A DNA stretch of 32,624 bases from a virus, in the IMG/VR virus record IMGVR_UViG_3300025671_000271, positions 1 to 32,624 of that record. One strand, given 5' to 3'. The translations under genes and the position numbers were made by a program. Of the stretch, positions 11,122-32,623 are shown one piece after another. How positions within the stretch are numbered: the first letter of the stretch is position 1; every line of letters starts with the position of its first letter. Below the pieces are notes generated by a model. The model did no database searches. It saw only the letters and a program-made list of their open reading frames with translations, and was not told the DNA's origin.

Positions 11122-12152
11122 TGGCTTACACTACAATTAAAAAACCTTCGGATTATTTTAATACTAAACTTTATACAGGTAATGGTACAACAGATACAGC
11201 TATAACAGGAGTTGGATTTCAACCAGATATGACTTGGATTAAATCAAGGTCTGCCGCTACACCTCATTCACTTACTGATGCTGTTAGAGGTAATAATCAA
11301 GGATTATATCCAAATTTAACTAATGCAGAAAATACATCAAGTAATTATGTTAAATCTTTTGATAATGATGGTTTTACTCTTGGCACAGATAGTATAATAA
11401 ATGCTAATTCTGCAACATTTGCATCATGGAATTGGTTAGCCTCAAACACAACTGCATCAAACACAGTTGGAGATATAAACTCTACTGTTAGTGCTAATAC
11501 AACAAGTGGATTTAGTATTGTGTCTTATACAGGAACAGGTTCTTCTAGTGCAACAATTGGTCATGGATTAGGTGTTACACCTAAAATGATTATTATTAAA
11601 AATCGTAGTACTACAAGTAATTGGGTAGTTTATCATGAAACTATGGGAAACAATCAAATTATGTTTTTAGATTTAACTGATGGTCAATCTCTATCTAATG
11701 GAACTTTTAATGCAACATCTCCAACAAATTCAACATTTACTGTTGGTAATTCACTTTCAACAAATGGTTCTGGTAATAATATAATTGCTTATTGCTTCAG
11801 CGAAATTAAAGGCTTCAGCAAGTTTGGTTCTTATGTTGGCAACGGTTCGGTTGACGGAAGTTTCTGCTATCTCGGATTTAAACCAAAATTAGTTATTGTA
11901 AAAGAATATGGTGCATCAGGAAATTGGATTATGAAAGAAAGTAGATTTGATAATCAAAATGATAGCTATATACTTTCTAATGATCCTTCTTCAGAAGTTA
12001 ATGCAAATGCAGTTGTTGGTTTTGATTTATTAAGTAATGGTTTTAAATTAAGAGGCACAGCAGGAGATAGTAATGGAGCAGGTGCTAATATTTTATACAT
12101 GGCATTTGCCGAAGAACCTTTAGTGGGAGATAACCCTTGTACAGCGAGATAA
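11121..12152 (+). CDS. Repeat-containing tail fibre protein (DUF7483-like)
   Basis: 343 residues built from repeated motifs of the form [YT]-GNG-x-x-D-...-GF-[QK]-P-[DK]-...-[IV]-K-[SE], seen at about residues 17-45 and 240-265. A middle copy carries GHGLGVTPKMIIIKNRSTT followed by NWVVYHE. This is a common fibre family in marine phages (DUF7483 as I recall). The segment YCFSEIKGFSKFGSYVGNGS (~228-247) is the most conserved part of the family, and here it is encoded by visibly GC-richer codons than its surroundings. Likely a receptor-binding or fibre-extension component. The start overlaps the previous stop. Confidence 0.74.
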   Translation: MAYTTIKKPSDYFNTKLYTGNGTTDTAITGVGFQPDMTWIKSRSAATPHSLTDAVRGNNQGLYPNLTNAENTSSNYVKSFDNDGFTLGTDSIINANSATFASWNWLASNTTASNTVGDINSTVSANTTSGFSIVSYTGTGSSSATIGHGLGVTPKMIIIKNRSTTSNWVVYHETMGNNQIMFLDLTDGQSLSNGTFNATSPTNSTFTVGNSLSTNGSGNNIIAYCFSEIKGFSKFGSYVGNGSVDGSFCYLGFKPKLVIVKEYGASGNWIMKESRFDNQNDSYILSNDPSSEVNANAVVGFDLLSNGFKLRGTAGDSNGAGANILYMAFAEEPLVGDNPCTAR

Positions 12153-20082: not shown

Positions 20083-20316
20083 ATGACACTAGCTGAATGG
20101 CGAAAGAAACAAAACATATCCCACTATACATTAGGACAAATGTTGGGATTTAGATCTATCAATCCTGCAACCAACTCGCAACGATATTGCCTTGAGAGTA
20201 AAGAAAAAAGATTTCCAAAACCAAGTACAGTAAAAAAGATATTGGAAGTGACTAAAGGTGAAGTTAAGATTGAAGATCTTTACAAGGCTTGGTGGGAATA
20301 TGAAAAAGCAAAGTAA
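20083..20316 (+). CDS. Cro/XRE-like helix-turn-helix regulator
   Basis: 77 residues. The start MTLAEWRKKQNISHYTLGQMLGF and the later R-Y-x-LESKEKRFPKPSTVKKILEVTKGEV follow the XRE/Cro plan: helix, turn, recognition helix, then the 'P...t..kI...t.g.v' region. It is the first gene of the rightward early operon and lies next to an operator-like inverted repeat in the divergent region, so it probably controls its own operon and the leftward recombination operon. A strong AAAGGAG site precedes the ATG. No full-length CI-type repressor is present in the window. Confidence 0.8.
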   Translation: MTLAEWRKKQNISHYTLGQMLGFRSINPATNSQRYCLESKEKRFPKPSTVKKILEVTKGEVKIEDLYKAWWEYEKAK

Positions 20317-20750: not shown

Positions 20751-21111
20751 TAAGGACCTATACTCAAAGTGGCATAGGACCTTTGAAAAAATAGCAATGA
20801 TCGACATAGATTCTGTAGAAATATGTCAGAATAAAGGATGTTGGCAACCTTTAGCCTTGATCGAGACAGTATATGATACAGGAAACTATAAAAAATATAC
20901 TAACTCTATGCGTTGGTTAGGCAAAGCTGCTAATCTTCCTTGTTTCTTGGTGTTTTATAAAAAAATGACACAAGGTATGCTTGAGTTCAAAGTTCAGCGA
21001 CTAAGCACCCTCTATGAGCCTTTAATCGCTATGTCTCAAGAGGAGTGGGTAGGTATTTTAAGAGATATACAAGAACAACATCAGAAAGTATGTAAATATG
21101 CTAAAGACTAG
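20728..21111 (+). CDS. Hypothetical protein, possible degenerate PD-(D/E)XK-like fold
   Basis: 127 residues. The centre reads I-D26-I-D28-S-V-E-I...WQPLALIE46TVYD, then NSMRWLGKAANLPCFLVFYKK. This is the order of a PD-(D/E)XK nuclease (D, then hydrophobic strand with E, then a helix and a P-x-F-x-V-x-Y strand). The usual Lys two residues after the second acid is replaced by Val48, so it may be inactive or use another residue. Cys33 and Cys38 could bind a metal. It overlaps the winged-helix gene by 14 bases. The nuclease idea is inference from pattern only. Confidence 0.6.
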   Translation: MRYAKHFDKDLYSKWHRTFEKIAMIDIDSVEICQNKGCWQPLALIETVYDTGNYKKYTNSMRWLGKAANLPCFLVFYKKMTQGMLEFKVQRLSTLYEPLIAMSQEEWVGILRDIQEQHQKVCKYAKD

Positions 21112-21766
21112 GGGTTTTTTACACTTAACTTATAAGCTGTACCATTATTTAGACAAACTTGGCGAAAGAAAGGCAACTTGTTTATGTGTTTATCTTGCTT
21201 TGCTTAAATATGCTTGGAAAAAAAACGATTATGTCTGTCATATCCGACACTCAACTTTAGAAAAAGATACTATGCTTTCAAGACCTACAATCAAACGATG
21301 TCTTGACACTTTAGAGACTTTGAATGTCATAAAATCTGTTCGAGGAAAGTCTGGCAAGACCTATGCTGTAAATGATAAGTTTTTAAAGGAAGAAAAAGCT
21401 ATGATAGTAAATAATGAGCTATCTAATGTAAATAAAAGAGCTATATTAGAAGAAACAACATACCAATATAATAATATTAATAAAATTATAGGTATGTATA
21501 GATCAGATAAGGATAGAATGATCTTAGAACTAGCCAAGCTACCCCTGTCAGACCTTAAAGAAGATACTAACAATGTTTATTATTGTAAGTTAGCCATTCA
21601 AAAGAAAGAGGAACTTGCTCGTGAAAAAAATACAACTTATGTTAGTAGTGATAAGATTTTATCAGCTCTTAAAAAGATTGGAAAGATGTCCAACCCAAGA
21701 TACCGAGAGAAAGTAGAATTTAATAAACGAAACAACCTAGATTATAAAGGTAATCCTAAAAAATAA
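21098..21766 (+). CDS. Winged-helix, replication-initiator-like protein
   Basis: 222 residues. The N-terminal ~95 form a winged helix: LTYKLYHYLDKLGERKATCLCVYLALLKYAWKKNDYV, then HSTLEKDTMLSRPTIKRCLDTLETLNVI (recognition helix) and SVRGKSGKTYAV (wing). This HTH_36-like domain occurs in plasmid and phage replication proteins. The C-terminal half is helical and basic with no helicase or primase motif. With no polymerase in the window, it may bind the phage origin and recruit host factors; a transcription factor is the alternative. Confidence 0.7.
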   Translation: MLKTRGFLHLTYKLYHYLDKLGERKATCLCVYLALLKYAWKKNDYVCHIRHSTLEKDTMLSRPTIKRCLDTLETLNVIKSVRGKSGKTYAVNDKFLKEEKAMIVNNELSNVNKRAILEETTYQYNNINKIIGMYRSDKDRMILELAKLPLSDLKEDTNNVYYCKLAIQKKEELAREKNTTYVSSDKILSALKKIGKMSNPRYREKVEFNKRNNLDYKGNPKK

Positions 21767-21767
21767 C

Positions 21768-22184
21768 ATGGTTGGCAGACCAAAAAGAAAAGTTTTTTGT
21801 CAAGCTATTACTCGTAAAAGTATTCGAGAAGGTAAGCCTAGAAATTGTATGGCAAAGGGTTATTTGTGTGCAAATGGCAAATATTTATGTAGATTTCATG
21901 GATCACAAAATGTAGAAGGATTTAAAAGACCTAATTATACAGATGACTCAAGAAAAAAACAACTCAAAGCTCTTAAACAATTCAGAAACTACAGCGATGA
22001 ACAACTCGACCAATATTACCGAGAAAAAATTAAACGACAAATTGAATTTGGAGAAAAATCTACCTACCATACTCGATTCATTAATAGAAGGAAATACTCT
22101 AACGCATTGTATCGAATCCAAGATAACAAATCCATCGGGGATCAGCTTAAGCAAATTTTACAGCACATTAAAGAAAAATCCTGA
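21768..22184 (+). CDS. Small zinc-ribbon-like protein of the HGGxSTG type
   Basis: 138 residues. RKVFCQAITRKSIREGKPRNCMAKGYLCANGKYLCRFHGSQNVEGF carries the Cys/Cys-x-x-His-Gly arrangement of the small phage 'CRFHGGxSTG' proteins, often encoded just before small terminase. Here the motif reads CRFHGSQNVEG, a divergent form. The second half is a charged helix, and from 21943 onward its DNA is also read by the small-terminase-like gene in another frame. It begins one base after the winged-helix gene's stop. Confidence 0.72.
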   Translation: MVGRPKRKVFCQAITRKSIREGKPRNCMAKGYLCANGKYLCRFHGSQNVEGFKRPNYTDDSRKKQLKALKQFRNYSDEQLDQYYREKIKRQIEFGEKSTYHTRFINRRKYSNALYRIQDNKSIGDQLKQILQHIKEKS

Positions 22185-22479
22185 GCTTGAGCAACAAGTT
22201 TTAGATGCTCGTAAAATTGGAGTGCAAACTTTAATTGATAGATTGCTTGAGATTTTTATGCGTCAAGAATTAGAAAATCCAAATCAAATTTTATGGATAA
22301 GATCTAAAACTGATTTTGTTAAATGGGTTGCAGGTAAAATAACTGATCTTTATTCTGATAATAAGGTACAATCTGTTAAAACAGATCAATCTATTAAAAT
22401 TTCTTGGGAAGATAATCAGGATGATTTGATTGATGTGTCTGGGGATATAACTGATATACCCCCAGAAAATAAAGATTAA
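21943..22479 (+). CDS. Terminase small subunit-like protein
   Basis: 178 residues from ATG 21943; ATG 21997 is an alternative start and would shorten the overlap. Residues ~35-150 resemble small terminases of the Sf6/Terminase_5 kind: LPTILDSLIEGNTL..C, a helix-turn-helix with SLSKFYSTLKKNPELEQQVLDARKIGVQTLIDRLLEI, and WIRSKTDFVKWVAGKITDLYS. It would recognise the packaging site and hand DNA to the large subunit, which is 3 kb downstream beyond an opposite-strand cassette. The first 80 codons overlap the previous gene and encode a polar, probably disordered stretch rich in Asn, Ser, Thr and Lys. Confidence 0.7.
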   Translation: MTQEKNNSKLLNNSETTAMNNSTNITEKKLNDKLNLEKNLPTILDSLIEGNTLTHCIESKITNPSGISLSKFYSTLKKNPELEQQVLDARKIGVQTLIDRLLEIFMRQELENPNQILWIRSKTDFVKWVAGKITDLYSDNKVQSVKTDQSIKISWEDNQDDLIDVSGDITDIPPENKD

Positions 22480-23594: not shown

Positions 23595-24311
23595 TTAATA
23601 GTTGACTACAAATCCTGATTGGTCCTTCTTAGCTTTACCCTTAGCAACTAAACCAACTATAATATTTTTGGGATCTTTAAACCTTAGATCGTTTTTATCT
23701 CCATCAATTACAGTTTTATTTAAATATACTTCAGGCAATTTGTCTTTAAAAACAATTGCAGCATTGCCGCCATTGTTTAAAACTTCTTGCACATCCTGGT
23801 CATTGCTTTCCGATTTACTGAAAGTTAAACTATAATTAGAAGGCAATTTTTGATCCAATCTATTTTTGATTTTTGTATAATCGTAAAATATAACATCAGG
23901 ATTATTCTCCATTAAATTTAAACCATTCTCCAACTTATATCTCTCATATGGAAGGTCACTTGTACCATTTAATCTAACCGCTAATGTTAAATTATTTTTA
24001 TCACAATATTTCTTTTTAGTTTTTATTTCATGATCCAGTTGTTTTAAAAATCCTGGTCTGTTAGCTAAAAAATAATATTTTTTATTTAATCTGGATAATT
24101 GCACACTTGTCATTTGTCCACGACCTGCAGTATTTAAACAACCTGCAATGCATCCTTTACTTGCAGAAGGACAAATATTAACACCGCCAATATTGTATGG
24201 AGCTAAGAATAAACCTAAGTTGTAATAACCAACTTTAAACCCTTTATTCATTTTGTATTGGGTTTCAGGTTTACTGAATAATCTTTTTACTGGTTTATAT
24301 GTATATTTCAT
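23595..24311 (-). CDS. Gp88/DUF7227-like protein
   Basis: 238 residues. Recognised by NIGGVNICPSASKGCIAGCL, NTAGRGQMTSVQLSRLNKKYYF, LAVRLNGTSDLPYE, VIFYDYTKIKNRLDQ, NYSLTFSKSESND, DLRFKDPKNIIVGLVAKGKAKKDQSGFV. This is a conserved phage family (I recall it as gene product 88 / DUF7227) with a three-cysteine cluster C-x7-C-x3-C near the N-terminus that could bind a metal or iron-sulphur centre. The biochemical activity is, to my knowledge, not established. It has its own leader and upstream palindrome, independent of the flanking units. Confidence 0.75.
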   Translation of the reverse strand: MKYTYKPVKRLFSKPETQYKMNKGFKVGYYNLGLFLAPYNIGGVNICPSASKGCIAGCLNTAGRGQMTSVQLSRLNKKYYFLANRPGFLKQLDHEIKTKKKYCDKNNLTLAVRLNGTSDLPYERYKLENGLNLMENNPDVIFYDYTKIKNRLDQKLPSNYSLTFSKSESNDQDVQEVLNNGGNAAIVFKDKLPEVYLNKTVIDGDKNDLRFKDPKNIIVGLVAKGKAKKDQSGFVVNY

Positions 24312-24420: not shown

Positions 24421-24834
24421 TTAAGCTGCTTTTTTAGAAGTCAATATGTATGGTTTTAAGCTATCACCAATTTGAATTGAAATATAAAAAGCTGTACTAA
24501 AATAATCGGTCATTGGATCGGAATTATCATACCATTGATTATCAGTTGCAGCTGTTTTAATGATCTTAATCATGTCACTAAAAAAACTTTCAAATTCTTT
24601 ATAAAAGTTTAAATGATAATGATTAATTCTATAACCATTTAAATTAAAATTATCATTCTCATATAAATTATTTGAATATTCTTTTAAATTCCAAAAATTT
24701 AATGGACCTGATAATATTTTGATTTGTACTGTACTTGAGTATTTATTCTTAGATACACTCAATTTAAAATCAGGATAAGACTTTTTTAAAGCTGCTCTAA
24801 TATCCTGAATATCTTTTTTAGTTACATAAGCCAT
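24421..24834 (-). CDS. LPD29-like (large polyvalent protein-associated domain) protein
   Basis: 137 residues. The start AYVTKKDIQDIRAALKKSYPDFKLSVSKNKYSSTVQIKILSGP follows the LPD29 pattern (K.t...IR..Lk..fP..kfSV....ys....I.v...dGP). It is followed by helices and a beta part with GYRINHYHLNF and WYDNSDPMTDYF. LPD29 occurs in large polyvalent proteins of mobile elements and in stand-alone phage proteins; its exact role is unknown. Here it is a separate gene with its own promoter, leader and terminator, suggesting an independently regulated early accessory function. Confidence 0.65.
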   Translation of the reverse strand: MAYVTKKDIQDIRAALKKSYPDFKLSVSKNKYSSTVQIKILSGPLNFWNLKEYSNNLYENDNFNLNGYRINHYHLNFYKEFESFFSDMIKIIKTAATDNQWYDNSDPMTDYFSTAFYISIQIGDSLKPYILTSKKAA

Positions 24835-24974: not shown

Positions 24975-24991
24975 TTTAGAATAATTCTAAG
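24975..24991. repeat. 17-bp palindrome, copy 1 (ICE-box-like)
   Basis: TTTAGAATAATTCTAAG: palindromic except for the final base. Part of a three-copy family in the region before the packaging genes. Confidence 0.75.
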
Positions 24992-25050
24992 TTTAAATAT
25001 ATTGGGGTTGGATAAGTTACTATTCTAATATAAAGGCAGCTTGTTTTTTA

Positions 25051-25087
25051 TTGCAGGTGTTTATCATCGGTTTAGAATAATTCTAAA
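25051..25087 (+). promoter_or_regulatory. Promoter overlapped by 17-bp palindrome, copy 2
   Basis: TTGCAG (25051-25056), spacer 16, TAGAAT (25073-25078). The perfect palindrome TTTAGAATAATTCTAAA (25071-25087; 7-base arms plus flanks around a 3-base centre) covers the -10 and the expected transcription start, as a repressor operator would. Confidence 0.6.
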
Positions 25088-25204
25088 GTACCAGGACCAA
25101 TTAAAAGATTTTATTAATTTATTACTGATAATCTTTTATTATCGATACACCAAAGCATATAATATTTACAGAATAGATCGACAATTTTTGAAACTTGACC
25201 ACCC

Positions 25205-25236
25205 CCCACCCCCGCAAATGCGGTGTGGGTTTATTA
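25205..25236 (+). terminator. GC-rich hairpin, terminator-like
   Basis: CCCAC (25205-25209) pairs with GTGGG (25225-25229), and CCGC (25212-25215) with GCGG (25220-25223), around an AAAT loop; TTTATTATATAT follows. It could end rightward transcripts starting at the 25051-25087 promoter before the packaging genes, i.e. act as an attenuator, or be part of a packaging site. Confidence 0.45.
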
Positions 25237-25249
25237 TATATATATACAT

Positions 25250-25266
25250 GGGACTCGAGGACTCCC
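25250..25266. other. Isolated GC-rich semi-palindromic island
   Basis: GGGACTCGAGGACTCCC stands out in AT-rich DNA. It contains the palindrome CTCGAG, a GGACTC direct repeat and GGGA/TCCC ends. It is a candidate protein-binding or packaging-recognition site; no direct evidence for either. Confidence 0.35.
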
Positions 25267-25288
25267 TTACACACAGACATTCATTCTT

Positions 25289-25325
25289 TTGCACAGCAAC
25301 AATTTTACTTTAAAATAATTCTAAA
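25289..25325 (+). promoter_or_regulatory. Promoter overlapped by 17-bp palindrome, copy 3
   Basis: TTGCAC (25289-25294), spacer 16, TAAAAT (25311-25316). The palindrome copy TTTAAAATAATTCTAAA (25309-25325, one change from copy 2) covers the -10. Same layout as copy 2. Transcription would start about ten bases before the ATG at 25334, giving a very short leader for the packaging/head operon. Confidence 0.6.
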
Positions 25326-25333
25326 TAAGCTAG

Positions 25334-25534
25334 ATGTGGTATATGAACTATTTTTCATCAGAAGATATGGATTGTGTTTGCTACATTGAAGAGAAAACAA
25401 ACAATGTAGTAATCAAGTTCTTTGGTATGGATAACCAAGATTCAGCTGAACTATTCACAATCTATGTGATGAACAGACTAGGCTTTGAATATAATTCACT
25501 TAGCTATGAGATGCCTAGCAAAGCAGTTCATTAA
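25334..25534 (+). CDS. Small protein preceding the large terminase
   Basis: 66 residues: MWYMNYFSSEDMDCVCYIEE, then KTNNVVIKFFGMDNQDSAELFTIYVMNRLG. Looks like a small alpha/beta domain; in many phages a short protein of this form sits right before terL. Start at 25334 or at the second Met (25343); no clear ribosome-binding site, in line with a very short leader from the promoter at 25289. It ends 5 bases before the terminase start. Function unknown. Confidence 0.65.
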   Translation: MWYMNYFSSEDMDCVCYIEEKTNNVVIKFFGMDNQDSAELFTIYVMNRLGFEYNSLSYEMPSKAVH

Positions 25535-25539
25535 TTGCT

Positions 25540-26811
25540 ATGGATATTAAAATACCCTATACACCAAGACGACACCAATCCTACTTGCACAAACAAATCT
25601 CCAGATACAGATGGAATGTGCTTGTATGCCATAGAAGGTTTGGCAAAACAGTATGTATGATCAACCACCTAATTAGGTCAGCATTGCTGTCCAATCAAAA
25701 AAACCCTAGATTTGCTTACATTGCACCAACCTTCAAACAAGCTAAGTCTATTGCTTGGGATTACATGAAACAGTTCACGGCAAAAATTCCTTACACTAAA
25801 TTCAATGAAACAGAACTAAGGGTAGATCTGCCTAATGGCAGCAGAATAACATTACTGGGTTCAGAAAACTCAGATGGCTTGAGGGGTATATACCTAGATG
25901 GGTGTGTCATCGATGAGTATGCGAATGTAAATTCAAAACTATTCCCAGAAATTATTAGACCTGCACTATCAGATAGAAAAGGATATTGCGTATTTATTGG
26001 TACTCCAGCAGGAATGAACAACAACTTTTACGAATTATTTCAACACGCACAAGGTGCAGAAGATTGGTTCTCCTACAAGGCAAAAGCATCAGAGACTAAG
26101 ATTGTAGATGAAGAGGAGCTTATCAAGGCAAAAGAGGTAATGGGTGAGAAGAAGTACCTACAGGAGTTTGAGTGTGATTGGATTGCCAACATTGAGGGTG
26201 CAGTATATGGAGATATTATTGCTAAGATGGATGATGACAAGAAGATAGCAAGAGTACCTTATGATCCTACCTTGCCTGTCAATACTGCTTGGGACTTGGG
26301 AGTCTCCGACCATACTGCCATAATCTTCTTTCAGCAAAAAGCAGGAGCAGTAAACATTATTGATTACTATGAGGAACGAGGTCAAGGCTTACCACACTAC
26401 ATTCAGATTATAAATGAAAAGGGATATATCTACAAAGATCACTTTGCACCACACGACATTGAGGTAACAGATTTTAGTAATGGCAAAACCAGAAGAGAGG
26501 TAGCCTACCAATTAGGGGTGCGGTTCAAGGTAGTTCCTAAGATCCCACTAGAGGATGGAATCCACGCAACCACTATGACATTGCCAAGATGCTACATTGA
26601 TGTAGACCATTGCAAAAAATTGATAGATGCGTTAAGACACTACCATAGGAAGTATGTTGACAAAAATAGAATGTTTAGGTCTAAGCCTAATCACGATTGG
26701 AGTTCACATGCTTGTGATAGTATGAGGTACTTAGCTGTCGGCTTACAAGAACTAAATACTAGACAAACTGCTCCACAAAGTGTAGCAGATAATAATTACA
26801 ATATTATTTGA
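25540..26811 (+). CDS. terL: Terminase large subunit
   Basis: 423 residues. The ATPase domain has a Walker A-type loop CHRRFGKT (30-37, K36), IAPTFKQAKSIAWDY (adenine-motif region), GSENSDGLRGIYLDG, and Walker B plus catalytic Glu in CVIDEYA (D125, E126), with a coupling motif near FIGTPAG. The nuclease domain begins about residue 255 with AWDLGVSDHTAIIF (first Asp) and ends with NHDWSSHACDSMRYLA, whose Asp completes the metal site. It packages DNA into the prohead together with the small subunit and portal. Shorter than T7 gp19 (586) but normal for this group. Codon use is visibly less AT-biased than in the internal virion protein genes. Confidence 0.95.
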   Translation: MDIKIPYTPRRHQSYLHKQISRYRWNVLVCHRRFGKTVCMINHLIRSALLSNQKNPRFAYIAPTFKQAKSIAWDYMKQFTAKIPYTKFNETELRVDLPNGSRITLLGSENSDGLRGIYLDGCVIDEYANVNSKLFPEIIRPALSDRKGYCVFIGTPAGMNNNFYELFQHAQGAEDWFSYKAKASETKIVDEEELIKAKEVMGEKKYLQEFECDWIANIEGAVYGDIIAKMDDDKKIARVPYDPTLPVNTAWDLGVSDHTAIIFFQQKAGAVNIIDYYEERGQGLPHYIQIINEKGYIYKDHFAPHDIEVTDFSNGKTRREVAYQLGVRFKVVPKIPLEDGIHATTMTLPRCYIDVDHCKKLIDALRHYHRKYVDKNRMFRSKPNHDWSSHACDSMRYLAVGLQELNTRQTAPQSVADNNYNII

Positions 26812-26820
26812 GGATTTTTT

Positions 26821-27042
26821 ATGGGATCAATATTTAAACCAAAAATTCAAGCACCACCACCTGTTCAACCTTTGCCAGAACCGCCTAAAGCAGAACTAAG
26901 TGATGAGGAAAAAGCAAGAATAAAAGCTGAGCAAGATGCGATTGAGAGAAGAAGAAAAGGTAGAAAGTCTACTATCCTTACTGGACCACTTGGTGTGCAA
27001 GAATCTGAAGAAACAAAATTAAAAACTTTGTTAGGAGAATAG
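26821..27042 (+). CDS. Small Pro-rich protein upstream of the portal
   Basis: 73 residues. PPPVQPLPEPPKAELSDEE is followed by a charged helix and then GRKSTILTGPLG...KLKTLLGE. The GRKSTILTGP-LG motif recurs in small podovirus proteins next to terminase and portal genes, as I recall, with unknown function. A similar stretch (RSLTIQTGPSG) is in the 27435-27923 protein. GAGGAT precedes the ATG. The final codons (TTAGGAGAA) also contain the ribosome-binding site of the next gene. Confidence 0.7.
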   Translation: MGSIFKPKIQAPPPVQPLPEPPKAELSDEEKARIKAEQDAIERRRKGRKSTILTGPLGVQESEETKLKTLLGE

Positions 27043-27043
27043 C

Positions 27044-27271
27044 ATGGGATCAACAACAGGATTAAGACCAAAATCTTTAAAAGATAAATCTGTTATAGCT
27101 TACGCAAAAGCTAAATCAGAAGGTAGAGGATTTGATAGTTTGCCAAAAGGTGGAAGTGTTATGGCAACTAGAGTTTATAATAAAAAAAAATCTAAAGAAA
27201 TAAATGTTCAACAATTAATTGATGAAGATAAAACTTATTCTTTAGGTAAACCAAGTTTATTAGGAGCATAA
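27044..27271 (+). CDS. Small head-region protein with C-terminal LGKPSLLG tag
   Basis: 75 residues: MGSTTGLRPKSLKDKSVIAY, basic middle, end TYSLGKPSLLGA. The last eight-residue motif is repeated at the end of the 27435-27923 protein. An AGGAG site inside the previous gene's end precedes its ATG, and its own TTAGGAGCA end supplies that of the next gene. Unknown function; likely a late virion or assembly component. Confidence 0.65.
   Translation: MGSTTGLRPKSLKDKSVIAYAKAKSEGRGFDSLPKGGSVMATRVYNKKKSKEINVQQLIDEDKTYSLGKPSLLGA
27241..27264 (+). repeat. 24-bp repeat encoding the LGKPSLLG tag, copy 1
   Basis: Identical at 23 of 24 bases to 27893-27916. It encodes the same C-terminal peptide in two different proteins and, in this copy, ends in the Shine-Dalgarno sequence of the next gene. 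Confidence 0.8.
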
Positions 27272-27432
27272 TGCTAAATAAAATTAAAAAGTTTTTTAAA
27301 AAGAAACAAGAAGATATTTTGTATTTAAAAGAAGAAGTAAAGTTTAACAACATAGATGATTTAAAATCAAAAAAAGAAACTAACTCAGAAACTAAATCTG
27401 AAACTAAATCATCTTTAACATTTGGAAAATAA
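27271..27432 (+). CDS. Small charged protein
   Basis: 53 residues: MLNKIKKFFKKKQEDILYLK, then a Lys/Glu/Ser/Thr-rich tail with a repeated ETKSETKS stretch and the end SSLTFGK. AGGAGCAT ribosome-binding site; the ATG overlaps the previous stop. The amphipathic basic N-terminus could touch membrane or DNA. Not recognised. Confidence 0.6.
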   Translation: MLNKIKKFFKKKQEDILYLKEEVKFNNIDDLKSKKETNSETKSETKSSLTFGK

Positions 27433-27434
27433 TT

Positions 27435-27923
27435 ATGGGTTCTAATTCTGGATCTAATAGTGGAAGTGCAGATGCACCAATGACTACAAGATCAAAAGTA
27501 TCTACCACAACAAAAGCAAAAATTGCCACACAAAAAGCTGTAGATTTTGTTAAAGGTGGTGGAATTGTAGGAGCAGCTGTTAGAGGTATAACAAGTGCTG
27601 TTAGAAAAGGAAGAGTTAATACATCATTAATGGGTACATCAGATTATCAAGGTTCAACAACAAGAAGTAATATTGGAGATACTGGAAGAGGAGATGGTGG
27701 CGGAGCAATGGGAACAAGCGGTCAAGTCGTACAAGCACCTCAACCAATGGTAGCTCCTACTACAGCAGAAGTATCGCAAAGTTCAGCAACTGATGCAGAA
27801 GATCCACTTCTATTAAGAAAAAGAAAAACATTAGCAAGAGGAAGATCATTAACAATTCAAACTGGTCCAAGTGGCACAACAGGTAGCTTGACTTTAGGCA
27901 AACCAAGTTTATTAGGTAGATAG
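27435..27923 (+). CDS. Low-complexity head-region protein with C-terminal LGKPSLLG tag
   Basis: 162 residues rich in Gly, Ser, Thr and Ala, mostly disordered. There is one helical stretch with a Gly-rich hydrophobic core (AVDFVKGGGIVGAAVRGITSAVRKG, ~35-60). The C-terminus RKRKTLARGRSLTIQTGPSG combines the TGP motif of the 26821 protein with SLTLGKPSLLGR, the tag of the 27044 protein. It ends one base before the portal start. The composition suggests a flexible virion or assembly protein; no family assigned. Confidence 0.62.
   Translation: MGSNSGSNSGSADAPMTTRSKVSTTTKAKIATQKAVDFVKGGGIVGAAVRGITSAVRKGRVNTSLMGTSDYQGSTTRSNIGDTGRGDGGGAMGTSGQVVQAPQPMVAPTTAEVSQSSATDAEDPLLLRKRKTLARGRSLTIQTGPSGTTGSLTLGKPSLLGR
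27893..27916 (+). repeat. 24-bp repeat encoding the LGKPSLLG tag, copy 2
   Basis: One base different from 27241-27264. Here the downstream Shine-Dalgarno (TTAGGT) leads to the portal gene. Confidence 0.8.
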
Positions 27924-27924
27924 T

Positions 27925-29550
27925 ATGGCACAAACAGATAAAGCTAAAAATTTATTAAAACGATTTGACAGATTAAAATCTCAAAGACAAAATTGGGAAA
28001 GTCATTGGCAAGAAGTTGCAGACTATATGCAACCAAGAAAAGCAGATGTAACTAAGTCAAGATCTAAAGGTGATAAAAGAACTGAATTAATTTTTGATTC
28101 TTCTCCATTACAATCAGTAGAATTATTAGCTGCATCATTACATGGTATGCTAACTAATCCATCAACTCCTTGGTTCTCTTTAAGATTCAAAGAAGATGAA
28201 ATGGAAAATGAGGATGAAGCAAAAGAGTGGTTAGAGTCTGCAACAGAAACAATGTATGCAGCATTTAATAAATCAAACTTCCAACAAGAAATTTTTGAAC
28301 TGTATCACGATCTAATTACTTTTGGTACAGCAGCAATGTTTATCGAAGAAGATGATGAAGATATTTTAAAATTTTCTACAAGACACATTAATGAAATGTA
28401 TATTGCTGAAAATGAAAAAGGTAGAATCGATACAGTATTTAGAAAGTTTAAATTATCTGCAAGAGCTGCAATACAAAAGTTTGGTCAAGTATCTACTAAC
28501 ATTGCAACTACTGCAAAGAAAGATCCATACGAAGAAGTAGAAATACTTCATGCAGTATATCCAAGAACTGACTTTGATCCTAAGAAACAAGACAAATCAA
28601 ATATGCCATTTGAATCTGTTTACTTAGAAGCAGGTACAGGTGAAGAATTATCTGTGTCTGGATTTAGAGAGTTTCCATTTGTAGTACCAAGATACTTAAA
28701 AGCATCCCATGAAATTTATGGAAGATCCCCTGCAATGACAGCATTGCCAGATGTGAAGATGTTAAATGAAATGTCTAAGACTACAATCAAGTCTGCACAG
28801 AAACAAGTTGATCCACCTTTATTAGTTCCAGATGATGGATTTATATTACCAGTAAGAACAGTACCTGGTGGTTTAAATTTTTACAGAGCAGGAACTAGAG
28901 ATAGAATTGAACCATTAAACATTGGAGCAAATACTCCACTAGGTTTAAACATGGAAGAGCAAAGAAGAAACTCAATTCGAAATGCGTTCTATGTAAATCA
29001 ATTAATGATGCAGAGTGGTCCACAAATGACAGCAACAGAAGTTATTCAAAGGAACGAAGAGAAGATGAGATTACTTGGTCCAGTTCTTGGTAGACTTCAA
29101 TCTGAATTATTAAAACCATTAATCGATAGAGCATTTGCTTTAATCCTTAGAAAGAATTTATTTAGACCAGCTCCAGAATTTTTAAGCGGTAAAGATATTG
29201 AAATCGAATATGTATCTCCACTAGCTAAAGCACAGAAGTCTAGTGAACTACAATCGATTATGAGAGCAATAGAAATCATGGGTAGCTTATCTAATGTTGC
29301 TCCAGTATTCGATCATATCAATATGGATAAATTGGTTAGACACTTAGCAGACATTGTTGGTGTACCACAAAAAATATTAAAACCACAATCTGAGTTAAAT
29401 GCTGAACGACAACAAGCACAAGCTCAACAAGAACAAATGCAACAAATGCAACAGCTACAACAAGTAGCGGAAGCAGGGGGAAAAATAGCACCACTCGCAA
29501 AGGCTTTACCAGAAGAAGCTAGAGCTGTAGCGAATGCTGATATTGAGTAA
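27925..29550 (+). CDS. Portal protein (head-to-tail connector, T7 gp8-like)
   Basis: 541 residues, matching T7 gp8 (536). Typical features: RFDRLKSQRQNWESHWQEVADYMQPRK at the start, SSPLQSVELLAASLHGMLTNPSTPWFSL, then EFPFVVPRYLKASHEIYGRSPAMTALPDVKMLNEMSKT and GPQMTATEVIQRNEEKMRLLGPVLGRLQSELLKPLIDRAF. All are landmark stretches of the podovirus head-tail connector family. The C-terminal ~60 residues are Gln-rich (barrel/crown region). It forms the dodecameric ring through which terminase packages DNA. The start follows TTAGGTAGATAGT; its stop overlaps the next ATG (TAATG). Confidence 0.95.
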   Translation: MAQTDKAKNLLKRFDRLKSQRQNWESHWQEVADYMQPRKADVTKSRSKGDKRTELIFDSSPLQSVELLAASLHGMLTNPSTPWFSLRFKEDEMENEDEAKEWLESATETMYAAFNKSNFQQEIFELYHDLITFGTAAMFIEEDDEDILKFSTRHINEMYIAENEKGRIDTVFRKFKLSARAAIQKFGQVSTNIATTAKKDPYEEVEILHAVYPRTDFDPKKQDKSNMPFESVYLEAGTGEELSVSGFREFPFVVPRYLKASHEIYGRSPAMTALPDVKMLNEMSKTTIKSAQKQVDPPLLVPDDGFILPVRTVPGGLNFYRAGTRDRIEPLNIGANTPLGLNMEEQRRNSIRNAFYVNQLMMQSGPQMTATEVIQRNEEKMRLLGPVLGRLQSELLKPLIDRAFALILRKNLFRPAPEFLSGKDIEIEYVSPLAKAQKSSELQSIMRAIEIMGSLSNVAPVFDHINMDKLVRHLADIVGVPQKILKPQSELNAERQQAQAQQEQMQQMQQLQQVAEAGGKIAPLAKALPEEARAVANADIE

Positions 29551-29786
29551 TGAGTGATCTCAAACAGTTTGAAAAACAAATAAAAGAAATAAGAGAAGCA
29601 TACAAACAAATTTTTGAATCAGATGAAGGTAAAAAAGTTTTATCTGATTTAGAAAAGCGATGCCACTTTTGGTCTACCACTAATGTTAAAGGGGATAGCC
29701 ATGAGAGTGCATACATGGAAGGTCAAAGGAGTGTACTTCTATTTATTAAATCAATGCTCCAAAATGATAACACTAAAGGAAGATAA
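29550..29786 (+). CDS. Bbp19-like small phage protein
   Basis: 78 residues: KQFEKQIKEIREAYKQIFESDEGKKVLSDLEKRCHFWSTTNVKGDSHESAYMEGQRSVLLFIKSML. The F-x-S-x-x-G-K-x-V-L-x-D-L-x-x-x-C and EGQRSVxxxI patterns are those of the Bbp19-like family, found between portal and scaffold genes in podoviruses. Its role is unknown, probably in head assembly. It is coupled to the portal gene by TAATG. Confidence 0.8.
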   Translation: MSDLKQFEKQIKEIREAYKQIFESDEGKKVLSDLEKRCHFWSTTNVKGDSHESAYMEGQRSVLLFIKSMLQNDNTKGR

Positions 29787-29788
29787 CT

Positions 29789-30655
29789 ATGTCACAAGAA
29801 CAGATAACACAGGAAACTGTGCCTGTAGCAGAGACAACACAAACTACTACAGAAGCACCAGTACAAGAGACACAGATAGAGCAACCAGTTCCAACTGTTG
29901 CTAAATCTTGGAAAGAAGCAATCTCAGAAGATTTAAGAAATGATCCAAACATATCTAAGTTTACTGAACTAGAAGCTCTTGCTAAATCATATGTCAATGC
30001 AACAAGAATGATTGGTCAAGATAAAGTTGCAGTACCAAATAACAATTCAACAGAAGATCAATGGAATGAAGTTTATAATAAACTTGGCAGACCAGAGTCT
30101 CCAGATAAATATCAACTTGAAGTTAAATCAGATGTTGTTCCATTAGATGAAAGTGCAATTAAATCTTTTGCAGAGAATGCTCATCAGCTTGGTTTAAATA
30201 ATAAACAAGCTCAAGGTATCTTAGAGTTTTATAAAAATTCTATGGAAGGTTCTGCACAACAAAATCAAGTAGACATGGAAACTGCTCAAGCAAATGCCGA
30301 ACAAGAACTTAGAAAAGAGTGGGGTAGAGCTTATGAAGATAATATTAAAAAAGCAGGTGCAGTTGCTAAAGCAAACATGGATGCAAACATTTTAGATATG
30401 CAATTAAAAGATGGTACACGATTAGGAGATCATCCTGCTATTATTAAAGGCTTTGCAAACATTGCTAACCTTATGTCTGAAGATAAATTAGTAAGTACAG
30501 AATCTGAAAATGTATCTCAAGGTATAGATTATGATGCTGAAATATCTAAGATTGTTAATGATCGAGATGGTCCATATTGGAATAAAGCACATCCAGATCA
30601 CGACAAGATAGTTCAGAAAGTATTTAATCTAAGAACTATGATGACCAATGGATAA
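29789..30655 (+). CDS. Scaffold / capsid assembly protein (T7 gp9-like)
   Basis: 288 residues. The Thr/Glu/Gln/Pro-rich acidic start (~1-30) is followed by WKEAISEDLRNDPNISKFTELEALAKSYVNATRMIGQDKVAVP, a helical coil to ~residue 190, and GDHPAIIKGFANIANLMSED, the standard arrangement of T7-type scaffolds. It helps the major capsid protein form the prohead and then leaves. GGAAGATAACT precedes the ATG. The major capsid gene follows after one small gene. Confidence 0.86.
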   Translation: MSQEQITQETVPVAETTQTTTEAPVQETQIEQPVPTVAKSWKEAISEDLRNDPNISKFTELEALAKSYVNATRMIGQDKVAVPNNNSTEDQWNEVYNKLGRPESPDKYQLEVKSDVVPLDESAIKSFAENAHQLGLNNKQAQGILEFYKNSMEGSAQQNQVDMETAQANAEQELRKEWGRAYEDNIKKAGAVAKANMDANILDMQLKDGTRLGDHPAIIKGFANIANLMSEDKLVSTESENVSQGIDYDAEISKIVNDRDGPYWNKAHPDHDKIVQKVFNLRTMMTNG

Positions 30656-30842
30656 CAAAGAACTTAGATTAGAGATACTTCGTATTGTAGTAGAAAGCGG
30701 ATCTGAAAATCAAAAATCAAATCCCTTGCCAATCTGCAACGAATATTATAAATGGGTTTCTAAGGCGGATGAAAATTCGCCTAAGAAAAGTAAGACAATG
30801 CGTAAGCACCTTACTGACGACAAGGAAAGACTTGTAGTCTAA
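30648..30842 (+). CDS. Small hypothetical protein between scaffold and capsid genes
   Basis: 64 residues: MDNKELRLEILRIVVESGSE, then LPICNEYYKWVSK and a basic end. The helical N-terminus resembles small phage DNA-binding or assembly proteins, but I do not recognise it. It overlaps the scaffold end by 8 bases. A candidate promoter for the capsid gene lies just after its stop. Confidence 0.62.
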   Translation: MDNKELRLEILRIVVESGSENQKSNPLPICNEYYKWVSKADENSPKKSKTMRKHLTDDKERLVV

Positions 30843-30874
30843 AAGACTTTAAATCCAAGAGAAGCCAAATATTT

Positions 30875-30903
30875 TTGAGAACTCCTCTGATTTTGTTTAA
30901 TAA
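30875..30903 (+). promoter_or_regulatory. Candidate promoter of the major capsid gene
   Basis: TTGAGA (30875-30880), spacer 17, TAATAA (30898-30903), then about 20 bases to an AATAGGAGAC ribosome-binding site before the capsid ATG at 30931. A separate promoter would help make capsid protein the most abundant late product. Confidence 0.5.
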
Positions 30904-30930
30904 TAACTTAACAAATAATAGGAGACAATT

Positions 30931-31797
30931 ATGTCTACACAAATAACAACAGCATTTGTAGAACAATATAGTTCTAACATTCAAATGCTATCACAACAAA
31001 AAGGTTCTCTTCTAAGAGATAAAGTTAGAGTAGAATCTGTTACAGGTAAAAATGCTTTCTTCGACCAAGTTGGAAGTGTTACAGCATCTGTTCGTTCAAC
31101 AAGACACGCAGACACTCCTCAATCTGATACTCCTCACTCAAGAAGAAGAGTTTCATTGGTTGATTACGAGTTTGCTGATCTTATCGATGATCTAGACAAA
31201 GTAAGAATGTTAGTAGATCCAACTTCTACTTACGCATTAGCTGCTGCTTATGCAATGGGTAGAGCAATGGATGATGCTATCATTACTGCTGCAACTGGTT
31301 CTGCTGATACTTTTCCTTTAGGAGTAAGTACACCAGTAGCATTACCTGCATCTCAAATCATAGCTGAAACTGGTACAACTGGTATGAACATTGCTAAGTT
31401 AAGAGAAGCAAAAGAGATCATTGATTTAGCTGATGTTGATCCTTCACTACCAAGACACATCATCGTATCTCCAAAACAAATCTCTGATTTGTTAGGAACT
31501 ACTGAAGTGACTTCTAGTGATTTCAATACAGTTAAAGCATTAGCACAAGGTGATATTAATACTTTCTTAGGATTTAATTTCATCGTGTCTAACAGATTAG
31601 CTGTTGCATCTCAAATTAGAGATTGTATTGCTTTTGTAAGTGATGGAATCGCTTTAGCAGTTGGTAAAGATGCTACTGCTAGAATCGATGAAAGAGCTGA
31701 CAAAGGATATGCTACTCAAGTTTACTATTCTGCTGCATTCGGTGCGACTAGAATGGAAGAAGACAAAGTAGTTAAAATCCAAGCATACGAAGCATAA
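30931..31797 (+). CDS. Major capsid protein
   Basis: 288 residues with the HK97-like capsid pattern of marine podoviruses: an N-terminal helix, VRVESVTGKNAFFDQVG, DTPHSRRRVSLVDYEFADLIDDLDKVRML, AYAMGRAMDDAIITAATGSA, PRHIIVSPKQISDLLGTTEVTSSDFNTVKALAQG, FLGFNFIVSNRL and DKGYATQVYYSAAFGATRMEEDKVVKI. It is shorter than T7 gp10A (345 residues). It has the best ribosome-binding site of the block (AGGAGA), probably its own promoter, and a strong 3' hairpin, all fitting high expression. Confidence 0.93.
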   Translation: MSTQITTAFVEQYSSNIQMLSQQKGSLLRDKVRVESVTGKNAFFDQVGSVTASVRSTRHADTPQSDTPHSRRRVSLVDYEFADLIDDLDKVRMLVDPTSTYALAAAYAMGRAMDDAIITAATGSADTFPLGVSTPVALPASQIIAETGTTGMNIAKLREAKEIIDLADVDPSLPRHIIVSPKQISDLLGTTEVTSSDFNTVKALAQGDINTFLGFNFIVSNRLAVASQIRDCIAFVSDGIALAVGKDATARIDERADKGYATQVYYSAAFGATRMEEDKVVKIQAYEA

Positions 31798-31810
31798 TCG
31801 CTTTAATTTA

Positions 31811-31832
31811 GGTGGGGGAGCAATCCCCCATC
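31811..31832 (+). terminator. Hairpin with GCAA (GNRA) loop after the capsid gene
   Basis: TGGGGGA (31813-31819), loop GCAA, TCCCCCA (31824-31830), with a further G-T and G-C pair outside: a 9-bp stem. No T tract follows, and the ATG of the next gene is two bases after the stem, so it may be a partial terminator or an mRNA-stabilising end, or may limit translation of the next gene. Confidence 0.6.
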
Positions 31833-31833
31833 T

Positions 31834-32040
31834 ATGATTATGAAACAAATAAAAGATTTAAAAACAGTATTACATTTTAGAAAAGGGGATTATGTCTACA
31901 GGTATGTATTAGTAGACAGATATAAAAATACTAGCAAAGTACATCATGGATTTGATGCTAAGCTAGAAAGAACTGAAGCGGAGATATTTGCTTTAGAAAA
32001 AGATAGACAGATTAGAAGAAAGTATATTATAAGGAAGTAA
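31834..32040 (+). CDS. Small basic protein between capsid and tail tubular A
   Basis: 68 residues (or 66 from ATG 31840): LKTVLHFRKGDYVYRYVLVDRYKNTSKVHHGF looks like a small beta barrel, and the second half is a basic helix. No ribosome-binding site is visible because the hairpin occupies the leader. Not recognised. Confidence 0.6.
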   Translation: MIMKQIKDLKTVLHFRKGDYVYRYVLVDRYKNTSKVHHGFDAKLERTEAEIFALEKDRQIRRKYIIRK

Positions 32041-32041
32041 T

Positions 32042-32623
32042 ATGGCATCAGTAGTAGATATTTGTAATGGAGCATTAAACCAACTTGGTGCATCAACTAT
32101 ATTATCATTGACAGAAGATTCAAAGAACGCAAGACTTTGCAACGCAAGATACACACAAGTTAGAGATAGTTTATTTAGATCTCATCCTTGGAATTGTTTA
32201 ATTAAAAGAGCTGAACTTGCAAGAGATACAGCAACACCTTCATGGGGTTTTAGTTATCAGTTTACTTTACCAGCAGATTGTTTGAGAGTTCTAACTATTT
32301 TAAATTATGATTATGATTATAAAATTGAAGGTAGAAAAATTTTAGCAAACCATGGCACATTAAGAGTACAATATGTTGCAAGAATTGAAGATCCAAATCA
32401 ATATGATGAACTATTAAGAGAAACTATATCAGCTGCATTAGCTGCTGACATTGCCTACGCAGTTACATCATCTAATCCTGTTGCTTCTAATATGTACAAT
32501 TTGTTTCAAGATAAATTAAAAGAAGCAAGATTTGTAGATGCTACTGAAGGTCAAAACACTAATCCAGATAATGGTCAATCAGATGTTGTTGGAGCTTCTT
32601 CATTTATAAACGCAAGGTACTAA
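32042..32623 (+). CDS. Tail tubular protein A (T7 gp11-like)
   Basis: 193 residues, T7 gp11 being 196. The landmark start SVVDICNGALNQLGASTILSLTEDSKNARLCNARYTQVRDSLFRSHPWNCLIKRAELA and the later FTLPADCLRVLTIL are those of the podovirus gatekeeper. The family has a long helix bundle and a small beta domain. It docks beneath the portal and carries the nozzle. The gene stops 2 bases before the window's end. Its AAGGAAGTAAT ribosome-binding site is in the previous gene's end. Confidence 0.94.
   Translation: MASVVDICNGALNQLGASTILSLTEDSKNARLCNARYTQVRDSLFRSHPWNCLIKRAELARDTATPSWGFSYQFTLPADCLRVLTILNYDYDYKIEGRKILANHGTLRVQYVARIEDPNQYDELLRETISAALAADIAYAVTSSNPVASNMYNLFQDKLKEARFVDATEGQNTNPDNGQSDVVGASSFINARY

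Follow-up and report, generated by a model that had tools for sequence, protein, structure and literature searches.

Three palindromes ahead of a pelagiphage packaging operon

The window (the whole 32.6-kb stretch of DNA that was analysed, an IMG/VR virus record) was identified by DNA similarity as an HTVC010P-type pelagiphage with a SAR11 host. All 21 of the 21 phage records matching it are Pelagibacter phages, with Greip, HTVC024P, and HTVC035P at the top (~80% identity). The palindromes lie in an intergenic stretch with leftward genes on one side and the rightward packaging/head operon on the other. The nearest leftward gene, which is divergent and carries an LPD29 domain, occupies 24421–24834 on the minus strand. 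The packaging operon opens on the plus strand with a small first gene (25334–25534; 66 aa, or 63 aa if ATG 25343 is the start), and comparison with isolates showed that they likewise have a small gene ahead of the terminase large subunit gene terL. In the window terL (25540–26811, plus strand) served as the anchor for all comparisons and is followed on the same strand by the portal, capsid assembly, major capsid, and tail tube genes of the late operon (26821–32623), which were named from isolate annotation.

Several neighboring features deserve mention in their own right. An Sf6-type small terminase-like gene (21943–22479) is found ~3 kb from terL, outside the packaging operon. The gene at 21098–21766 is of the kind called “transcriptional regulator” in isolate annotation but matches phage replication initiators (phrog_678) instead. 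A GP88-family gene (PF17338, cysteine-rich) is located near the palindromes at 23595–24311, and a GP88 gene is also close to an exact copy of the box in several unrelated viral contigs among the matches listed. Between the second and third palindromes, at 25220–25265, lies an element that is strongly conserved in relatives (tttattatatatatatacatgggactcgaggactccctt) and is a candidate cos/packaging site.

Palindromes starting at 24975, 25071, and 25309 had been noted from the letters alone, and all three are present there, far above shuffled expectation. Box 1 (TTTAGAATAATTCTAAG, 24975–24991) has one mismatch and sits between the divergent leftward gene and the rightward region. Box 2 (TTTAGAATAATTCTAAA, 25071–25087) is an exact 8-1-8 palindrome, and box 3 (TTTAAAATAATTCTAAA, 25309–25325), again with one mismatch, ends 8 bases 5′ of ATG 25334 and 17 bases 5′ of ATG 25343. 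When up to three mismatches were allowed on both strands, the palindrome pattern had 7 matches compared with a shuffle mean of 1.81 and a maximum of 5, and a reversed control pattern allowed up to one mismatch had 0 matches in the window. A matrix built from host sites detected 4 sites scoring at least 13 compared with 0.16 in shuffles, and boxes 1, 2, and 3 scored highest (19.3, 22.3, and 18.8, respectively).

The proposed resemblance to the inverted repeat of the ICE box, TTTAGAA-N3-TTCTAAA, also holds, as box 2 matches 14/14 of the specified bases and boxes 1 and 3 match 13/14 each. Since the N3 centre is almost always TnA, the site is better written as TTTAGAAT-n-ATTCTAAA, which is the 7-1-7 form of Fur-family boxes. 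Fur-family proteins (Fur, PerR, and Zur) bind 7-1-7 repeats, and their boxes are inverted repeats of the same general form as the phage boxes. We regard the three boxes as candidate Irr-like operators.

The box in SAR11 hosts and in related phages

A host lacking Irr had been named as evidence that would tell against an iron link. “Candidatus Pelagibacter ubique” encodes both Fur and Irr (PMC2864753), and an Irr-like gene was found in 77/101 SAR11 genomes, many of these being incomplete. FUR-family genes numbered three in each of 7/8 sampled SAR11 genomes, the eighth, a partial genome of ~0.7 Mb, having none. For one of the three, the SAR11 Irr-like protein, the best NCBIfam match is IrrA (4e-39), with a score of 133.7 that lies under the curated IrrA/Irr cut-offs (150).

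In SAR11, irr is divergent from fabA-fabB and is followed downstream by rubrerythrin or katG. The box TTTAGAATnATTATAAA was present 5′ of the irr start codon in 33/33 SAR11 irr loci (-20 to -24, mostly -21), and the gap between irr and rubrerythrin/katG contained one or two further boxes in all 33, with the variants TTATAATnATTCTAA, TTAAAATnATTCTAA, and TTAAAACAATTCTAA. The last two are forms that box 3 takes in the window and in related phages, and TTAAAATAATTCTAA is a host variant which, like TTAAAACAATTCTAA, occurs in phage box 3. Across the 101 SAR11 genomes, 82 of the 108 copies of exact TTAGAATNATTATAA flank irr, a region that makes up ~0.06% of the sequence.

The suggestion that the box be sought in the host upstream of iron and haem genes had a mixed outcome: the box lies 5′ of irr and of rubrerythrin/katG, whereas the strict TTTAGAA-N3-TTCTAAA sequence is rare in SAR11 (9/101 genomes, below a reversed control) and mostly away from iron genes. 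This rarity was considered as a refutation, a reading overturned by the presence in the irr flank of TTTAGAATnATTATAAA, the host form of the box. The iron-binding protein gene sfuC was rejected as an Irr target, as there was one weak, unconserved match in one genome. Its upstream boxes (TTGATAATCATTCGCAA and similar) are Fur-like and distinct from the irr box. Such Fur-like sites 5′ of sfuC are of the TGATAATCATT type, whereas the phage box matches irr/rubrerythrin instead, and the window boxes lack the TGA start of the SAR11 Fur box (TGATAATnATT-type, as 5′ of sfuC).

Phage and host sites were compared in both directions. A matrix derived from phage sites alone was applied to a complete SAR11 genome (1,343,202 bases, 94% coding according to a simple gene caller), where the irr and rubrerythrin promoters came first and second among 813 intergenic stretches; with column-shuffled phage matrices, both promoters reached the top two in 1/1000 cases. 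Across 80 related contigs, a host-only matrix identified 78 sites no more than 1.5 kb ahead of terL compared with 3 in the remaining 426 kb, and 0/200 shuffled host matrices reached 78 sites, all of these counts being drawn from related phages and related hosts and hence from non-independent samples. The host matrix is not blind, because its sites were collected using the phage consensus as probe with two mismatches allowed; the fixed placement 5′ of irr, the ranking across the genome, and the flanking bases do not hinge on this choice. Outside the matrix, the flanks agree between the host and phage sets (-3 T/C and -2 A at ~80% in both), and the asymmetric base at position 5 (G, T, or A) is identical in host and phage. 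As far as base sequence, permitted variants, and flanking bases go, the phage boxes are shown to match the boxes at SAR11 irr and rubrerythrin/katG, and their predicted sites are shown to be nearly confined to the region 5′ of the terminase genes. Scoring against a published Irr matrix had originally been proposed; the matrix that the sites match is the SAR11 irr-locus matrix built here, not a published one.

Lack of conservation in related phages, which had likewise been named as counterevidence, was not observed. A site was present upstream of terL in 45/59 sequences extending 1.2 kb or more in that direction (a set that includes the window) and near terL in 8/10 isolates scanned with the host matrix. 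Isolate scores ranged from 17.6 to 20.9 in HTVC010P, Skadi-5, Lederberg, HTVC035P, HTVC100P, HTVC204P, and HTVC203P, and HTVC024P had a weak site (14.1). No host-matrix site was found near terL in Greip and HTVC034P or upstream of terL in the other 14/59 sequences, thus the site is not essential. Box-1-type sites occur in many relatives and box 2 in about seven. Greip contains a perfect palindrome, TTGAGAATGATTCTCAT, ~525 bases upstream of terL, and two contigs contain TGAGAATCATTATCA at -436 beside a predicted Irr box; both sequences are Fur-box-like.

The box was also found in the HTVC023P group, which reportedly exceeds the HTVC010P type in abundance (PMC12753301). The best match in HTVC023P itself, ATTAGAATTGTTATAAT (11580–11596, score 16.5), is ~290 bases upstream of terS. 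Among related HTVC023P-type contigs, 9/65, forming one subclade, have a box no more than 600 bases 5′ of terS, in most cases a near-perfect copy such as TTTAGAATGATTCTAAT with flanks as in the HTVC010P type, and 10 sites were counted in 39 kb upstream of terS compared with 2 in 282 kb elsewhere. That unrelated phage groups have one site and one host in common suggests that the host supplies the reader. Infection by HTVC027P, a member of the HTVC023P group, increased host irr expression (PMC12753301). The HTVC023P gene at 44301–44921 is annotated as a putative ferrochelatase and has no Pfam PF00762 match. Ferrochelatase as the phage means of inactivating Irr was rejected, as this gene fails PF00762 and 0/22 records match.

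Predicted promoter at box 3 and candidate control by host Irr

In the window, a promoter layout is seen at two of the boxes. At box 2 it consists of TTGCAG (25051–25056), 16 bases, and TAGAAT (25073–25078), and at box 3 the predicted late promoter (25289–25316, plus strand) consists of TTGCAC (25289–25294), 16 bases, and TAAAAT (25311–25316), with the -10 inside the box. Box-3-class sites in relatives (23 sites, 17 distinct contexts) lie 7, 8, or 17 bases 5′ of an ATG within a conserved TATATG, which is the start of the first gene. Their left half is always -10-like (TAAAAT/TATAAT, or TAAAAC), with A or T at position 5 in 17/17 distinct contexts, and their right half mostly retains C. At boxes other than box 3, position 5 is mostly G (36/45). 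The best -35 match upstream of box 3 in relatives averaged 4.06 of 6 compared with a background of 3.05, and around all other copies it equalled background (3.13).

The promoter layout was rejected as a property common to every box, as it is conserved at box 3 only, where we predict a late promoter. The original prediction placed the same promoter over copies 2 and 3, and what stands of it is the layout seen at both in the window together with its conservation at copy 3; at copy 2 the layout is not conserved. Copy 1, also thought to overlap a late promoter, turned out to sit between divergent genes over no common promoter type, and it may have a role for the divergent or leftward genes. A repressor at copies 2 and 3 was expected to block the packaging/head operon, an idea that can be kept for copy 3, which overlies a conserved -10 just 5′ of the operon, and that loses its promoter at copy 2.

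We consider it quite probable that the palindromes are host Irr operators, that Irr at box 3 represses the packaging/head operon, and that Irr inactivation releases it. An Irr dimer already in the cell at infection would bind boxes 1–3 and at box 3 would cover the -10 of the promoter driving the packaging/head operon. With a bound dimer over the -10, occlusion and hence repression would be the simplest reading. Inactivation of Irr, whether by peroxide or, as in rhizobia, by sufficient haem and iron, would release the operon, and late expression of the phage would thereby depend on a host physiological signal via a regulator absent from the phage. While we infer the link to iron or haem, peroxide is as possible a signal, since the host boxes are at irr and at peroxide-defence genes (rubrerythrin and katG). 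HTVC010P-type phages are believed to use the RNA polymerase of the host (PMC10504331), which makes a host regulator acting on host-type promoters plausible. As the same switch lies 5′ of the packaging genes and of the SAR11 iron/haem-sensor gene irr, the virus probably reads the iron/oxidative state of its host when particle building begins.

It seems unlikely to us that Irr reads the boxes but activates, or that box 1 serves the divergent leftward genes, with the late operon not being the main target. In the window, box 1 lies ~140 bases 5′ of the leftward gene; in other relatives it precedes a rightward gene, and the title of a 2006 paper on the Bradyrhizobium ICE (cited in PMC3413700) refers to positive as well as negative control. 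Such roles agree poorly with the position of box 3, which lies over a -10 just 5′ of the packaging operon in 17/17 distinct contexts, and with the host rubrerythrin promoter, in which the second box covers the -10 downstream of TTGACA.

The phage encodes HTH-like proteins, and Skadi reportedly has genes for two transcriptional regulators and none for an RNA polymerase (PMC10504331), so that a phage-encoded regulator (the small HTH-like product of 20083–20316 or that of 21098–21766) might read the palindromes as ordinary phage operators. This is improbable, as this box, along with its variants and flanks, recurs 5′ of host irr and rubrerythrin, and the box is also located 5′ of terS in an unrelated phage group. 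Furthermore, the 21098 protein resembles a replication initiator, and no Fur-family gene above the cut-off was found in the 22 phage records (window and 21 others).

Identity with the host irr box would be left unexplained if the palindromes belonged to a DNA packaging (cos) site or to some other structural element of the DNA beside the terminase genes, a reading to which we assign very little weight. They do lie 5′ of terL or terS in two phage groups, and a strongly conserved element with GGGACTCGAGGACTCCC is present between boxes 2 and 3, but this nearby element is the better cos candidate, and box copy number and distance vary, with some phages having no boxes. Chance recurrence of AT-rich palindromes in AT-rich DNA can be dismissed, for although the motif is AT-rich and has exact matches in many unrelated viral contigs among the matches listed, its sites are nearly confined to one region, are not reproduced by shuffles or shuffled matrices, and are absent from two other phages of this host, HTVC011P and HTVC019P.

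Returning to host Irr as the probable reader, the HTVC010P type and a subclade of the HTVC023P type, which are unrelated SAR11 phages abundant worldwide, may independently have acquired an Irr operator 5′ of their terminase genes, with assembly gated by iron/haem or peroxide state, a proposal for which we see the chances as evenly balanced.

Relation to known host-sensing operators

This analysis supplies a predicted Irr box for SAR11; literature searches found neither SAR11 Irr binding data nor a published SAR11 Irr box. A literature search also returned no report of Irr sites in phages, which is weak evidence of novelty as subscription papers were mostly outside its coverage, and the one pelagiphage paper that it returned names Irr solely alongside phage genes annotated as ferrochelatase. 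Iron is limiting in large ocean areas, SAR11 are the commonest ocean bacteria, and pelagiphages are among the ocean's most abundant viruses. If true, control by host Irr would be a direct and testable link from host iron/oxidative state to virus production, and if both phage groups acquired the operator, particle assembly would be gated by host state across much of the surface ocean.

The half-site TTTAGAA/TTCTAAA is common to the phage boxes and the alphaproteobacterial ICE/Irr box of the rhizobial regulon (mbfA, bfr, and rubrerythrin-like genes), and the likeness extends to the presence of Irr in the SAR11 host with a host box at irr and rubrerythrin. The ICE overlaps the core promoter at S. 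meliloti mbfA (PMC7540006); of the phage boxes, box 3 overlies a predicted -10 conserved in relatives, and boxes 1 and 2 lie over no conserved promoter. At R. sphaeroides mbfA, transcription starts within the ICE box (PMC3413700), which can be likened to the overlap of phage box 3 and its predicted promoter. The differences are that the phage boxes occur in a lytic phage, 5′ of packaging genes and not of iron genes, and that the SAR11 boxes read TTTAGAATnATTATAAA, a predicted Irr box known from sequence.

Pho boxes in cyanophages (at pstS of P-SSM2 and in S-PM2d promoters; PMC10976474) are likewise operators, carried in phage promoters, for a nutrient regulator encoded by the host and not by the phage. 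They involve the two-component regulator PhoB and phosphate, whereas the pelagiphage boxes would involve a Fur-family regulator, iron, haem, or peroxide, a late packaging operon, and probably repression. The same cyanophage paper cautions against relying on Pho boxes predicted in phage genomes unless binding is tested (PMC10976474); binding of PhoB has been shown for cyanophage Pho boxes, whereas the pelagiphage Irr boxes are predicted from sequence. If the assignment to Irr is true, a Fur-family regulator would join PhoB, with its phosphate signal, among the host sensors used by phages.
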